The notes under the pieces: model-generated
Databases searched by the model: none
What the model saw: only the letters and a program-made list of their open reading frames with translations
Told to the model about the DNA's origin: nothing
Program-made: the position numbers and the translations under genes
DNA from: Roseovarius sp.
GTDB taxonomy: Bacteria; Pseudomonadota; Alphaproteobacteria; Rhodobacterales; Rhodobacteraceae
Direction of reading: 5' to 3'
Length of the DNA: 46,709 nucleotides
Assembly (NCBI GenBank): GCA_026709325.1
Contig: JAPOTF010000125.1
Location: 1 to 46,709, forward strand
In this document: positions 6,598 to 16,251 of the stretch, in pieces
Position numbering within the stretch: the stretch's first letter is position 1
Layout: every line of letters starts with the position of its first letter

Positions 6598-8703
6598 ATG
6601 AACGATAACGGAAAAAAGATTAGAGATTTTGTCTGGGATTTGAAAGAAGGACAAATCGTCACCTATGGACATATCGCGGAAAAATTAGAGGTGAAAGGGG
6701 CGCAGGGCGTTGGCGCTGCCATCAAGGCTGGATTTGACAATGTGCGGAATCCCGATTTTCCGTGTTGGCGTGTCATAGATGCAAATTTCCACCCGACGGA
6801 AGCAATGGGGCCCGGGGCGGCCAAGGAGAAACTTAAAAGCGAGAATTGGGAGTTTTTAGGCAATACCATTCATCCGTCTATGAGACATCTTGTGAATTGC
6901 GGAGATTCTGCCGGCAATGACGACTTTAAAAATTTACCGGAATGGGATCTTTCCGATTTATACAAATCCGAAACCGATCCGCAATTGGACCGAGATTTTC
7001 AATGGCTTGCTTCGGAATGCCGGGAATTTGCCGAGAAATACAAAGGGAAACTTGCGAAACTTGATGCAGAGGGTTTGCTTGAATGCATTAAGCGCAAGGA
7101 AAAAATCGACAATATATCTTCAAGGATAATGTCATTTGCCTTTCTTCGTTATGCGCAACTCTCAACCTCTCCGGAAAGAGCCAGCTTCAATACCGGCTGC
7201 ACGGAAAAAGTGAACGGCTCCACAACGCCTCTTGTGTTTTTTGGACTTGAGATCAACAGCCTTGAAGAAGAGCAACTAAATGAGATGCTGGATGAAAATC
7301 GGGAACTGGCGCGCTATGCGCAAGTATTGCGCAGAATGCGCGCATACAAGCCCCACCAGCTATCCGAGGAGCTTGAAAATTTCCTGCATGACATGAACGC
7401 GGTAGGAGCCGCCTGGTGCAATCTTTTTGATGAAACCATGGCAGGCCTCACCTTCAGATTAGACGACAGGGAAATGGGTCTTGAGTCCGCCCTTAATTTG
7501 CTAACCGATCATGATGAAGGCAAGCGTGAAGCCGCATTTCGAGAACTTGCGCGGATTTTCCGTGAAAATATCCGCATATTCTCCCGCATTCACAATACGT
7601 CAATCAAGGAAAAAGAGATTATAGACCGCTGGCGCAAGTTGCCCACCGCGCAGAGCGGGCGGCATCTGAACAATGACGTGGAACCGGAAATCGTTGAAGC
7701 GTTGCGTGATTCCGTTGTTAAAGCCTACCCTGACATCTCTCATCGGTATTATGAGCTCAAAAGAAAATGGATGGGCAAAAGGAAATTGCAAATTTGGGAT
7801 CGCAATGCCCCTCTGCCACTGGAAAGCGCCAAAACAATCTGTTGGGATGAGGCTGTTGAAACTGTTATGCAGGCTTATTCAGCGTTTGATCCCAAATTTG
7901 GAAAACTTGCCGAACCGTTCTTTAAAAATTTCTGGATTGATGCGGGAGTCAAAAACGGAAAAATGCCGGGAGCATTTGCCCATCCCACAGTCACAGATGT
8001 CCATCCCTACCTTATGCTTAACTATCTTGGAAAACCGCGTGACGTTATGACACTGGCTCACGAGCTGGGGCATGGCGTTCACCAGGTGCTGGCGGCAGGG
8101 CATGGCGAGTATTTGTCTGATACTCCGTTGACACTTGCTGAAACGGCAAGCGTTTTCGGGGAAATGTTGACATTCCAGAAGTTGCTCAATGAAACGGGTT
8201 CCAAAGACGAGCAAAAGGTTCTTCTTGCCGGCAAGGTTGAGGACATGATCAACACTGTAATCCGTCAAATTGCCTTTTACGACTTCGAATGCAGGCTGCA
8301 TTCCGCTAGACGGGAACGGGAACTTACGCCAGATGAGATTGGCGAAATCTGGATGTCGGCAATGAAAGACTCGCTTGGTTCTGCATTTGAGTATGCAGAC
8401 GGTTTCGAGGTTTTCTGGTCCTATGTACCGCATTTTATACACTCGCCGTTTTATGTCTATGCGTACGCATTTGGTGACGGTCTGGTGAATGCTCTTTACG
8501 CTGTCTACAGGGAAAGCCCCGATGGCTTTCAGGACAAATATATCGAGATGCTTAAAGCCGGCGGTTCAAAACATCACAAGGATCTGCTTGCTCCATTCGG
8601 ACTGGATGCATCCGATCCCGAGTTCTGGAGCAAGGGGCTATCGGTCATCTCTGATTTTATTGACCGGTTGGAGGCTTTGGAGGCCAATCAAAATCAAAGA
8701 TGA
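6598..8703 (+). CDS. Fusion: MGMT/ATL-like DNA-binding domain + oligoendopeptidase F (M3)
   Basis: A single uninterrupted 701-codon frame joins two families. Residues about 6-92 match the C-terminal domain of O6-alkylguanine alkyltransferases: a winged-helix segment (VTYGHIAEKL), then the active-site loop PCWRV at 55-59. Ordinary MGMT has PCHRV and alkyltransferase-like proteins have PWHRV. Here Cys56 is kept but the relay His is Trp, and the usual Arg finger is not seen. From about residue 115 (LPEWDLSDLYKSE) the protein is a full-length PepF/M3B oligopeptidase with the zinc motif HELGH at 488-492 and the downstream LAETASVFGEM glutamate. The ATG at 6598 follows GAAAGG at good spacing; an ATG at 6583 overlaps the previous stop. 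The gene ends the ridA-to-phhB chain. The peptidase should be active; the DNA-lesion role of the N-terminus is inference. Confidence 0.88.
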   Translation: MNDNGKKIRDFVWDLKEGQIVTYGHIAEKLEVKGAQGVGAAIKAGFDNVRNPDFPCWRVIDANFHPTEAMGPGAAKEKLKSENWEFLGNTIHPSMRHLVNCGDSAGNDDFKNLPEWDLSDLYKSETDPQLDRDFQWLASECREFAEKYKGKLAKLDAEGLLECIKRKEKIDNISSRIMSFAFLRYAQLSTSPERASFNTGCTEKVNGSTTPLVFFGLEINSLEEEQLNEMLDENRELARYAQVLRRMRAYKPHQLSEELENFLHDMNAVGAAWCNLFDETMAGLTFRLDDREMGLESALNLLTDHDEGKREAAFRELARIFRENIRIFSRIHNTSIKEKEIIDRWRKLPTAQSGRHLNNDVEPEIVEALRDSVVKAYPDISHRYYELKRKWMGKRKLQIWDRNAPLPLESAKTICWDEAVETVMQAYSAFDPKFGKLAEPFFKNFWIDAGVKNGKMPGAFAHPTVTDVHPYLMLNYLGKPRDVMTLAHELGHGVHQVLAAGHGEYLSDTPLTLAETASVFGEMLTFQKLLNETGSKDEQKVLLAGKVEDMINTVIRQIAFYDFECRLHSARRERELTPDEIGEIWMSAMKDSLGSAFEYADGFEVFWSYVPHFIHSPFYVYAYAFGDGLVNALYAVYRESPDGFQDKYIEMLKAGGSKHHKDLLAPFGLDASDPEFWSKGLSVISDFIDRLEALEANQNQR

Positions 8704-12153: not shown

Positions 12154-12342
12154 ATGGGCATAAACACCGAGCGAAACATTGATGCAAGTCTGCGAATTGG
12201 CCCTACCGATAGAGGGATGGTCAGGTTGTTTGTTGTCGCCGACGGCAAGGAAATACCTATGGATTTCGACCCTGAAGACGCGCGTGAAATCGCCGAGGAG
12301 ATCCTTGCTTCCGCCAAGACCGCCGCAAATGGCAAATCATAG
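12154..12342 (+). CDS. DUF6324 family small protein
   Basis: This 62-residue acidic protein starts at an ATG preceded by GGAG. The sequence runs MGINTERNIDASLRIGPTD, then a strand-rich part (GMVRLFVVADGKEIPMDF), then a helix (DPEDAREIAEEILASA). This matches the pattern of the DUF6324 proteins found next to mmcB in Rhodobacterales as I recall it. The function is unknown. The frame is open upstream to 12031, but those residues would begin directly beside the tRNA-His and look non-coding. Its stop overlaps the 3' end of the convergent mmcB gene by six bases. Confidence 0.75.
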   Translation: MGINTERNIDASLRIGPTDRGMVRLFVVADGKEIPMDFDPEDAREIAEEILASAKTAANGKS

Positions 12343-12792
12343 TTTAGGATCAATGTGCATTTGCAGACGCATCGCCGCATGACGGGCAAATTTACGAACG
12401 AGCACATTGCGTCTGGCTGCGGATAGTTTTCGCCTGGAAGCCATGCGGATGATTTCGGCCCCGTAGGAATCGGCAATCATTATTCCCGTGTGTTCAGGAA
12501 GAAGATCCACGGGAAACTCCAGATCAACCGCCCAGAAATACCCATCGCACCAATCCAGATATTCATGCCACTTGTTGTCGGACATGAAATCCGCCCGACC
12601 CGATTTGCATTCGACAATCCATAATTCTCCCTTTGGACCAAGCGCCATTACATCAACTCGCCTGCCCTTTGCAGGTGCAAACTCATCAATGGTGGCGTAA
12701 TTGCAACTGCGCAGGTATCGGCAAACGCCACGCATCAAAAGCCGGCCCGTTTGCTGTCCGTTGCTTTGGAAATGGTAGTTCTGATCGATCAT
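12337..12792 (-). CDS. mmcB: MmcB-family DNA repair putative endonuclease
   Basis: MmcB is a mitomycin-C/UV resistance protein first described in Caulobacter, with a PD-(D/E)XK nuclease-like fold. The 151-residue protein keeps the expected core: GRRVDVMALGPKGELWIVECKSG, with Asp47 and the E-x-K of VECKSG around residue 63, then the D-F-x-x-D-x-K-W segment (DFMSDNKWHEYLDWCDGYFW) and PVDLLPEHTGIMIAD. The last 40 residues are basic. It is convergent with the DUF6324 gene with a six-base overlap. Caulobacter mmcB is LexA-regulated, but no clear GTTC-N7-GTTC or GAAC-N7-GAAC box was seen just upstream here. Confidence 0.85.
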   Translation of the reverse strand: MIDQNYHFQSNGQQTGRLLMRGVCRYLRSCNYATIDEFAPAKGRRVDVMALGPKGELWIVECKSGRADFMSDNKWHEYLDWCDGYFWAVDLEFPVDLLPEHTGIMIADSYGAEIIRMASRRKLSAARRNVLVRKFARHAAMRLQMHIDPKL

Positions 12793-13164
12793 GAATTTTC
12801 ACTCCAGCGGATGCGCCGTTTGCGCAAATTGATACCCGCCCCAAATGCAGCTCCAAAAAACGATGAACATGGGCGCTTTAGATTAACCTCCCATAGCATA
12901 GATCAATTAATGGCATCGAATATACTACTCATCGCACTCTGTAGATCGCATCAATAATATTTGCTCGCGATGAACCAGTTCACGAGATATCCTGTTTTTG
13001 CACCGCCGGATCAAATGACGTTCCATCAAACTGGTAATGGAATGAGGTTGACGGCAGATATATCGTCCTTTGCTTTTTAATCTGCAATCTTGAGAATGAT
13101 AGTGGTGACTGCCGACATCAACTTGTGCGTTTTTCACAACATTGTTCAGGCTCTTGTTTATGGA
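12793..13164. other. Non-coding stretch upstream of mmcB
   Basis: About 370 bases lie between the mmcB start and the end of a broken gene. A 70-codon minus-strand frame (12925-13137), rich in His, Arg and Cys, lies directly downstream of the broken gene but has no family I recognise. No RNA fold or repeat was identified. It presumably holds the mmcB promoter. Confidence 0.4.
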
Positions 13165-13497
13165 TTATTCCCTGATGGCTAAGGGTGTCGGACGTTTCGC
13201 GCGATCTCTCATGTCCGAATGAATGGCCCCACCATTAAACTTCCACCATTCGGATTCGAGTCTTTGCATGGCTGCGCCATGTTCACTGGCTTCTGCAGAT
13301 TTGCGGTCTGCGAATATGACAAGTCACCGCGAAAAAATTCCGCCGCTTTCATATTTGGAATTTATTGCTTTTCCCACTGCTCGCGGATGTGCAACTCCGA
13401 GTTCCTGCGCGACATACCCGCAAGTGACGACTTCCCCATATGCTAAATTCGACACGAATTCCATTATCTCCCTGCCTCTGCCTTTTTCGATGGGCAC
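13165..13497 (-). pseudogene. Broken stand-alone MGMT/ATL-like gene
   Basis: Reading the minus strand from GTG 13497 to TAA 13165 gives 110 codons with one in-frame TGA at 13326-13324. The first part has the winged-helix block YGEVVTCGYVAQELGVAHPR with AVGKAI. The second part runs HGAAMQRLESEWWKF then GGAIHSDMRD. Both halves align, with one two-residue gap, to the N-terminal domain of the peptidase fusion at 6598 (YGHIAEKL, GVGAAI, GAAKEKLKSENWEFLG, TIHPSMR). The TGA aligns with the Trp of the fusion's PCWRV loop, and the preceding two residues are Ser-Arg instead of Pro-Cys. Neighbouring genes use TGA as stop, so recoding is unlikely. A decayed paralogue, probably through TGG to TGA plus other changes, is the best reading. 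Confidence 0.6.
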
Positions 13498-14093
13498 TTC
13501 TTCCTCATTCTCTTTTCCGGACCCATTGTTCAGGGCATGACTGAAATGCCAACGCTAAACGATTTCGGCCGCGGCAGGTACCAGGATTTCGACCCAACAC
13601 TCGTCAATTGGCGTTGAGAAACAAAAAGCAACGATCCCAGCAAGTGGCGCAAACCGGCATACGCAACCGGATTTAAAAACATCAAATGCTTGCATGATTT
13701 TTTCACATGAATTATACGGCCATGTTAATGGCGGGTTCTGCCCTTCACGTGCCAGGTAAATATTCCAGTGGCCTTAATCAATTCCAAGGGAGTTGGCTCT
13801 GTTCGGATCGTGGTCCGATTACCTGACGCCCACCTGTTAAAGCAGGTCCTTGGGAATTAAAATCCACACGGATGCGCGCGGTTCCGCCAGTTTTATTCCC
13901 ATCAAAAGACCGGGCAAATCGAAACCGAAAATATGCATTCGAAAGTCTGGAAAATGATCCTTCAAAACATGGCGACCATTTTCCGAACGATATGAAAACG
14001 GGAAATATCTGGTTGCCACCAGTCGCGGGTTTATGGCATTTTTTGGCCTGCCGGACTATCAAATCGACTGTAATGCAATTTGAGGATAACCTG
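13498..14093. other. Region upstream of ribB
   Basis: About 600 bases lie before ribB. The ribB frame is open back to 13872, but those 74 codons lack family similarity and the family N-terminus fits ATG 14094. On the minus strand, 13837-14019 has a compact open frame (GFDLPGLLMGIKLAEP) that could be a remnant of a gene; it has no start signal and no family. I looked for an FMN (RFN) riboswitch ahead of ribB and did not find its conserved blocks. Confidence 0.4.
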
Positions 14094-15245
14094 ATGTCAC
14101 ATATCAAGGCATACGAGAGACCCGGTCCCGTTGAATTGGAATTGAACAAGGCAATCTCCTCGACGCAGGAAATAATCGAGGAGGCGCGTGCGGGCCGCAT
14201 GTTCATTCTTGTTGATCATGAAGATCGCGAGAACGAGGGAGATCTGGTCATTTCCGCTGAATTTGCAAACGCCGAAGTAATTAATTTCATGGCGACACAT
14301 GGTCGAGGTCTCATATGCCTTTCAATGACATCTGAAAGGATCGACCGCCTTGGATTGCCAATGATGGCCGCGCGCAACTCGTCTCGGCATGAGACGGCAT
14401 TCACCGTGTCGATTGAGGCCAGGGAAGGCGTGACAACCGGAATCTCGGCGGCCGATCGCGCATTGACCATTGCAACCGCGATAAATGAACAGAACACAAT
14501 GGCGTCTCTCGCCACACCGGGTCATATATTCCCCGTGAAATCCAGAAAAGGCGGTGTCCTGGTCCGTGCGGGCCATACGGAGGCGGCCGTGGACATTTCA
14601 CGACTTGCCGGACTGAACCCCACCGGCGTTATTTGCGAAATAATGAACAAAGACGGCACAATGGCCAGATTGCCCGATTTAATCGAATTCGCAAAAACGC
14701 ATGATCTTAAAATCGGGACAATATCCGATCTGATTACTTATCGGCACAAACACGACAACCTTGTTCAGGAAACGCGAAGAGAAAACGTCAATTCCTGCCA
14801 TGGCGGATCTTGGGTTATGCGCATTTTCACCGATCAGATTACCGAAACCGAACATGTGGTTCTTGTCAAAGGCGACATTGCCACCCCGGAGCCGGTTCTC
14901 GCGCGCGCGCACGCTTTGAACGCGCTTGAGGATGTGCTGGGAATTGGTCTGGCTTTGAATGAAACCCGACCATCGGGAAAACTGCCCCGCGCCATGGAGA
15001 TAATCGCCAGCGAGGGACGCGGCGCCATATTCCTGTTTCGCCAGCCCCGGCCCAGTCTTGCCCGCGAAATGGAGGAGGATGACGGTCCCAGGACGATAAA
15101 GCAAACCGGACTCGGGGCTCAGATAATGTCTACCATGGGTCTTCATGAACTCGTTCTGCTTACAGACAGCCCCGAAACACGCTATCTCGGCCTTGATGCC
15201 TATGGAATCAGCATAGTGGGAACACGCCCTCTCAATGACGGATAA
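14094..15245 (+). CDS. ribB: 3,4-dihydroxy-2-butanone 4-phosphate synthase with degenerate GTP cyclohydrolase II domain
   Basis: The N-terminal domain (about residues 18-220) converts ribulose 5-phosphate to dihydroxybutanone phosphate for riboflavin synthesis. It has the catalytic loop VDHEDRENEGDLV near 42, MATHGRGLICLSM, the HETAFTVSIEA block and RAGHTEAAVDISRLAG. The C-terminal 160 residues follow the RibA fold (MRIFTD, EHVVLVKGD, PVLARAHALNALEDVLG, RGAIFLFRQ, LGAQIMSTMGL) but lack the three zinc cysteines of GTP cyclohydrolase II. Cyclohydrolase activity is therefore not expected, as in other alphaproteobacterial RibB proteins with this layout. The start at ATG 14094 follows GAGG at eight bases. 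It heads a ribB-ribH-nusB unit. Confidence 0.92.
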   Translation: MSHIKAYERPGPVELELNKAISSTQEIIEEARAGRMFILVDHEDRENEGDLVISAEFANAEVINFMATHGRGLICLSMTSERIDRLGLPMMAARNSSRHETAFTVSIEAREGVTTGISAADRALTIATAINEQNTMASLATPGHIFPVKSRKGGVLVRAGHTEAAVDISRLAGLNPTGVICEIMNKDGTMARLPDLIEFAKTHDLKIGTISDLITYRHKHDNLVQETRRENVNSCHGGSWVMRIFTDQITETEHVVLVKGDIATPEPVLARAHALNALEDVLGIGLALNETRPSGKLPRAMEIIASEGRGAIFLFRQPRPSLAREMEEDDGPRTIKQTGLGAQIMSTMGLHELVLLTDSPETRYLGLDAYGISIVGTRPLNDG

Positions 15246-15250
15246 AAACC

Positions 15251-15745
15251 ATGTTTGAACACAATAAACTGGAAAGACTGGCAATTGACGGCCCAAAGAG
15301 TGTTCTTGTGGTGAAGGCCGGCTTTAATGAAGACATTGTAAACATGCTCCATGAGGGGGCGGAAGAGGAAATCGAGGCGTGGGGTGGCAAAAGTGAAGTC
15401 GTTACCGTTCCGGGCGCACTGGAAATTCCAACCGCCATAAGCATCGCCGAACGTGAATTGAGCTACAACGCCTATGTGGCCCTCGGATGCGTCATCAGGG
15501 GCGAAACAACGCACTACGAGACCGTGTGCAATGAAAGCTCGCGCGGAATAATGATGCTTGGCTTGCAGGCGGCATGCATCGGCAATGGCATTCTGAATGT
15601 GGAAAACATCGAGCAGGCGATTGCGCGAGCCGACCCCGGGAAAATGAACAAGGGAGCCGAAGCGGCGGCGGCGGCACTGTATTTGCTTCATCACAAAACT
15701 GAACTGATTAAACGCCGAAAAGCCAAAGGCGTGGTTCGGTTTTAA
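15251..15745 (+). CDS. ribH: 6,7-dimethyl-8-ribityllumazine synthase
   Basis: RibH condenses the ribB product with 5-amino-6-ribitylaminouracil in riboflavin synthesis. At 164 residues it has the expected active-site blocks: VVKAGFNEDIV, with the aromatic position after the first strand, VPGALEIPTAISIA near residue 56, LGCVIRGETTHYETVCNESSRGIM near 80-103 (catalytic His in THYE), and GKMNKGAEAAAAAL at the C-terminus. It starts five bases after the ribB stop, so the two are surely cotranscribed. The middle NEXXTG-like region reads IGNGILNVENIEQAIAR, a divergent form of the usual GxLTxExxxQA. Confidence 0.92.
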   Translation: MFEHNKLERLAIDGPKSVLVVKAGFNEDIVNMLHEGAEEEIEAWGGKSEVVTVPGALEIPTAISIAERELSYNAYVALGCVIRGETTHYETVCNESSRGIMMLGLQAACIGNGILNVENIEQAIARADPGKMNKGAEAAAAALYLLHHKTELIKRRKAKGVVRF

Positions 15746-15771
15746 CATGACATAAATCGTGACAGACCGCG

Positions 15772-16251
15772 ATGAGCAATCTATCAGGCAATCAGAAACG
15801 CAAAATGCGCTCCCTTGCGAGACTCTACTCGGTTCAGGCGCTTTTCCAACTTGAACATTCAGGGCAATCCGTTGACACGGTTTATTGCGAGTTCATTGAA
15901 CACAGGGTTGGACAGGAGATTGACGATGGCATCGTTATGGCTGAAGGCGATACCGGCCTTTTTTATCTTCTCATAAATCAGGCGGTAAACTGGCAGGCAA
16001 AGATTGACCAGATGATCGATCATGCGCTTGTGGCAAAATGGCCAATCAGCCGCATAGATCCAACTCTTCGCGCGCTGTTCAGGTCGGCAGGCGCCGAACT
16101 TCTTGAATGCGACACGCCACCACAGGTGGTCATCTCGGAATACGTCAACATTGCCAGAAGTTTCTATCCAGAAGGGAAGGAGGCAAAATTTGCCAATGCC
16201 ATCCTTGACCACATGGCTCATGAAGCAAAACCCGAGGCGTTCGCAAATTAA
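15772..16251 (+). CDS. nusB: Transcription antitermination factor NusB
   Basis: NusB with NusE/S10 binds boxA RNA and supports antitermination of rRNA operons. The 159-residue all-helical protein has the family's start (RSLARLYSVQALFQLEHSG), the middle DQMIDHALVAKWPISRIDPTLRALFRSAGAELL and the terminal PPQVVISEYVNIARSFYPEGKEAKFANAILDHMA. All match the NusB signature in order. It follows ribH after 26 bases, the common ribH-nusB arrangement, and is convergent with lipB about 50 bases on. Confidence 0.93.
   Translation: MSNLSGNQKRKMRSLARLYSVQALFQLEHSGQSVDTVYCEFIEHRVGQEIDDGIVMAEGDTGLFYLLINQAVNWQAKIDQMIDHALVAKWPISRIDPTLRALFRSAGAELLECDTPPQVVISEYVNIARSFYPEGKEAKFANAILDHMAHEAKPEAFAN

Follow-up and report, generated by a model that had tools for sequence, protein, structure and literature searches.

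Minus-strand positions 13165-13497 of the window (the whole 46,709-nt stretch of Roseovarius sp. DNA that was analysed) very probably hold a pseudogene of a small stand-alone alkyltransferase-like (ATL) protein of the PWWRV type, the sister copy of which is now fused to a peptidase. As summarized in PMC10779285, ATLs bind DNA that contains O6-alkylguanine and flip this base into a pocket, after which the site passes to nucleotide excision repair; the alkyl group is not removed. The same review gives the working parts of the protein as a Tyr, an Arg finger, and a PWHRV motif. The two copies and the lesion in the broken one are located as follows.

13165-13497, minus strand: putative decayed stand-alone ATL (PF01035) gene, with GTG at 13497-13495, internal TGA at 13326-13324, and terminal stop at 13167-13165
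13324-13326, minus strand: TGA in frame, in place of the second Trp of PWWRV, the family motif
6598-6900, plus strand: sister copy, an ATL-like domain (PCWRV) that is intact and forms the N-terminus of the fusion gene product
6598-8703, plus strand: ATL-M3 oligoendopeptidase fusion gene, with TIGR02290 over residues 116-695 (translation from 6595)

Homology of the broken frame and the fused domain

Translation of the frame from 13497 to 13165 gives 110 codons and a stop, with a single internal TGA as codon 58. A preliminary description of this DNA had claimed one TGA in a minus-strand frame, coinciding with the Trp of PCWRV, in a broken copy of the ATL-type domain, and each of these points is borne out. 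In the pairwise alignment the TGA (13326-13324) stands opposite the Trp of PCWRV in the fusion, and local alignment of the broken frame with fusion residues 1-110 scored 143 against shuffled controls with a mean of 26.4 (sd 4.6, maximum 50, 2,000 shuffles). When the window was scanned in six frames as 1,692 chunks of 110 residues, scores above 44 arose only where chunks overlapped the fusion domain or the broken frame. The copies are identical at 35 of 90 aligned residues (39%), and the homology spans the first ~97 residues of the fusion. The claimed whole-length alignment therefore stands as homology and fails as to extent, as ~residues 8-97 of 110 are covered and the last 13 lie outside; the claimed distance of about 7 kb is more precisely 6.3-6.9 kb.

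Genome-wide, PF01035 has three matches. The broken frame reaches 24 bits (E 9.5e-5, under the 27-bit family cut-off), the fusion domain 37.5 bits, and a match on another contig, presumably a true methyltransferase, 111.9 bits. As in ATLs, the 110 codons of the broken frame contain PF01035 (the AGT C-terminal DNA-binding domain) without the N-terminal domain.

Predicted structures are in keeping with this assignment. The fusion domain was modelled with a pLDDT of 93; its best PDB match is an archaeal methyltransferase, with the S. pombe ATL fifth. The read-through relic was modelled with a pLDDT of 78, and its three best PDB matches are all ATLs (3gx4, 3gva, and 2kif; E 6.2e-5 to 8.2e-4), namely S. 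pombe Atl1 in two entries and V. parahaemolyticus 2kif. Since the TGA was read as Trp and an alignment of relatives was used, the relic model indicates compatibility with the ATL/AGT C-domain fold and no more. Like E. coli ATL, S. pombe Atl1, and V. parahaemolyticus 2kif, the relic has ~110 aa, PF01035 without the AGT N-terminal domain, the predicted fold, and the Arg finger; unlike them, it has Cys for the flipping Tyr, SR*LV for PWHRV (the asterisk being the TGA), and an in-frame stop.

Divergence as a coding sequence and probable later decay

Identical bases at codon positions 1, 2, and 3 number 52, 60, and 38 of the 90 aligned codons, and none of 1,000 runs of a neutral simulation was as biased by codon position; the alignment was built on protein similarity, which slightly favours positions 1 and 2, an effect outside the simulation. 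The codon-usage score of the broken frame is 0.232, as compared with 0.285 (sd 0.073, 74 pieces) for window genes in frame, and was attained by 1.9% of 370 wrong-frame pieces. Downstream of the TGA the score is still high (0.262), and the values both before and after the stop lie within the range of window genes. Taken together, codon-position bias and codon usage indicate that the copies diverged mostly while coding and that the TGA was acquired late. The stretch is thus a formerly coding sequence (bias of 52/60/38) with a disrupted frame (TGA at codon 58), as pseudogenes are.

One stop and zero frameshifts occur across the 110 codons. The neutral simulation left one stop or none in 20-24% of runs, which makes the stop count alone weak evidence, and the lack of frameshifts is strong evidence only given the indel rates that the simulation assumes. 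There was no sign of separate selection on a truncated 57-residue product in the counts of identical bases before (28/33/18 of 50 codons) and after (23/26/20 of 39 codons) the stop, though a recent stop could not have left such a trace.

The damage goes beyond the single TGA. In place of PWWRV the broken copy reads SR*LV, with P, W, and R gone and Cys absent, and so has no PxHRV-type motif of the kind that marks ATLs, in which Cys is replaced, usually by Trp. The base-flipping Tyr, another ATL mark, is also altered: its column holds Cys in the broken copy and Tyr in the 7 other alignment rows, which likewise retain P, R, and V. A third mark, the Arg finger, is retained in the broken copy although the fusion has Gln there, a point that counts against the proposed explanation. 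The loss of key residues suggests that the broken copy would yield no functional product.

The fusion domain has an unusual hybrid motif, PCWRV, in which Cys is kept and the His of PCHRV is replaced by Trp, combined with Gln at the Arg-finger column. According to PMC10779285, changing Trp to Cys in E. coli ATL does not confer transferase activity. Judged by that review, the broken copy would not be a methyltransferase, and its PCWRV sister probably is not one either.

Sister relation of the two copies

In a 22-row tree (support 95/95) and in a 15-row tree (96/97), the broken copy pairs with the fusion domain as its sister. The smaller tree omits L014, L015, L020, L028, L079, L083, and L086 of the larger one, mostly long or outgroup rows; outside both trees are L075, L076, L078, and L082, near duplicates of retained rows, and the majority of methyltransferase-like profile matches. 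The broken copy has branch lengths of 3.05 and 3.16 changes per column, as compared with 0.4 and 0 for the fusion, and this very long branch, for which the tree program warns of long branches meeting, makes its exact placement less certain. With the fusion removed from the 15-row set, the broken copy remains within a group of six family rows (96/94). Both copies lack a two-residue segment (mostly YG) after the start of the recognition helix, and towards the end they have E-x-W-x-F and IHxxMR in common, features absent from the six other alignment rows.

Given the sister relation, duplication within the lineage is the best reading, and at 39% identity the duplication would be old and not a recent local copy. 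Of the duplication, fission, or fusion history proposed earlier for this locus, duplication is upheld by the sister support (95/95, 96/97) and fission is not. Of 101 genomes, 86 (own included) have an M3 peptidase, and none of the 85 others has an ATL front end on it; none of their matches starts before residue 75, and most start near 100. No peptidase remnant was found after the broken copy in the frames of 12793-13164. The fused N-terminal domain is like the broken copy in being its sister (39% identical), and unlike it in being intact, in being joined to a peptidase, and in carrying Gln at the Arg-finger column along with PCWRV. A literature search for a fusion protein of oligoendopeptidase and alkyltransferase found nothing.

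Distribution of PWWRV-type ATLs

In Rhodobacteraceae, PWWRV homologues are found stand-alone (L010, L069, L072) and fused (L070, L071). The former belong to the same tree subfamily as the broken copy and, like it, have stand-alone frames; they differ in being intact and at other genomic places. These relatives, together with the start region and stop of the broken frame itself, agree with the earlier proposal that the domain once existed as a stand-alone protein of ~110 residues. As for the fused homologues, the PWWRV-type ATL domain of L071 (2986-4290) is in frame with a DUF2971 protein and that of L070 (2986-4440) with a protein of no other Pfam match. ATL domains in the family seem prone to join unrelated proteins. 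Archaeal ATL-EndoV fusions, described in PMC10779285, are a precedent for such joining; the partner there is a DNA-repair nuclease, whereas the sister's partner here is a peptidase and the relic is unfused.

Searched with a profile of four ATLs (E up to 1e-5), 18 of the 394 family genomes gave a match, which was strong (<1e-28) in 4 of them, own included; most of the remainder look like ordinary methyltransferases. At order level only the own genome matched (1 of 390, E up to 1e-10), and at class level 8 of 385 did, namely the own genome and 7 distant ones. A scan of named contigs yielded 11 loci, the nearest being the stand-alone ATL of a Rhodobacter MAG (L069; 46% over residues 8-77). A mobile or viral origin was considered and rejected: tblastn with the fusion domain gave no match among 72,556 plasmid records and 50,697 phage records and none confirmed in viral contigs, and the interval around the relic occurs only once in the genome.

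Genomic context of the relic

The relic lies between the following features.

12337-12792, minus strand: mmcB (PF06319), downstream neighbour of the relic on the same strand
12793-13731, no strand: expanded mmcB-6S interval of 939 nt, containing the relic
13732-13888, plus strand: 6S RNA (RF00013; 44.8 bits, just below the gathering score of 46.4), the relic's other neighbour

Of the 29 relatives' mmcB loci, 19 were scanned for 6S RNA together with the own locus (20 loci, E up to 0.01), and the gene lies beside mmcB in the own genome and in 11 of these 19. In the 11 relatives the interval, with the beginning of the mmcB match as its end point, spans 102-299 nt in 9; the other two have 635 nt and 904 nt, so the 939 nt found here include extra sequence. 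The 904-nt interval, from another genus, contains an ArsR-AHSA1 gene pair (L041, 645-1420). With a short interval in most relatives, ArsR-AHSA1 in one, and an ATL gene here, the site appears to take different inserts in different genera. It had been suggested that relatives be searched for an intact stand-alone gene beside mmcB; intact genes do exist at other places (L010, L069, L072), and none is at mmcB in the 29 relatives' loci or in 20 wider windows, which are mostly from the same genomes.

M3, rpoH, rluD, DUF6324, and mmcB form a block conserved in many relatives, and the two ATL copies sit at its outer edges, pointing inwards. In 14 of 16 relatives' windows with mmcB, nusB and ribH follow mmcB on the same strand; here the rib operon (ribB, ribH, nusB; window 14092-16251) is on the opposite strand. 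Compared with the best matches in those relatives' windows, identity is only 28-36% for the ribB product and mostly 53-69% for those of ribH and nusB. The inward-facing edge copies and the flipped rib operon could be explained by a chromosomal rearrangement that left the copies as inverted duplicates, one captured as a peptidase domain and the other decaying. As a search for repeats marking an inversion or insertion gave only weak short pairs and no evidence of a breakpoint, this stays a suggestion, to which we give little weight. If true, the locus would be an example from nature of a duplication after which one copy was fused and the other lost.

Alternative explanations

The two ATL genes might instead have been gained horizontally and independently of each other, which we consider unlikely. 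Such gains would suit the patchy occurrence of the PWWRV ATL (E < 1e-28 in 4/394 family genomes, own included) and two copies just 39% identical at separate places, but they are opposed by the sister support of 95/95 and 96/97 and by the missing segment, E-x-W-x-F, and IHxxMR that the copies share and the six other rows do not. Slightly harder still to accept is that the cell has an intact gene, with the TGA either introduced in sequencing or assembly or translated as an amino acid. A single stop without frameshift is explained by recent loss, though a sequencing error in a living gene would explain it too, and the coding signal persists past the TGA. Against an amino-acid reading, genome-wide recoding is rejected because TGA terminates 7 of the 20 scored window genes and is thus a stop here, and selenocysteine is disfavoured because selA (TIGR00474), part of the machinery it calls for, has 0 matches in the 97.7%-complete own genome. 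The TGA may be a sequencing error; correcting it would not restore the motif, and with P, W, and R beside the TGA and the flipping Tyr lost, the protein would lack at least the ATL function.

That the sister copy is fused today also invites the thought that the relic derives from a duplicated ATL-peptidase fusion and not from a stand-alone gene. We regard this as very improbable, given that no peptidase-like frame follows, that the relic has its own stop with mmcB 372 nt further, and that the ATL-M3 fusion is unseen outside the own genome (0/85). Nothing beyond the stop codon favours a chance resemblance of an intergenic frame, a reading that the alignment score (143 as compared with a shuffle maximum of 50), the independent genome-wide PF01035 match, and the codon-position bias lead us to reject as practically negligible.

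Proposed history and implications

From the homology, the sister relation, the coding past, the disrupted motif, and the extra sequence at the site relative to relatives, we infer an order of events, a loss of function, and a route of gain. An ATL gene of the PWWRV type, which is rare in Rhodobacteraceae and patchily distributed there, would have been present in the lineage and then duplicated. One copy would have come to lie upstream of the M3 peptidase gene, to which it is now joined in frame. The other, probably a free-standing protein of ~110 residues encoded between mmcB and the 6S RNA gene, in this scheme as an insert at that site, may have evolved fast while coding, lost its lesion-pocket motif and base-flipping Tyr, and gained the TGA.

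Taken alone, the relic is one more decayed gene, and the locus offers a modest gene history and no new kind of system. The ATL domain now on the peptidase is nonetheless a member of a small family whose proteins are free-standing, and a free ATL copy that existed and died in the same locus would provide a plausible history for the odd ATL-peptidase fusion.
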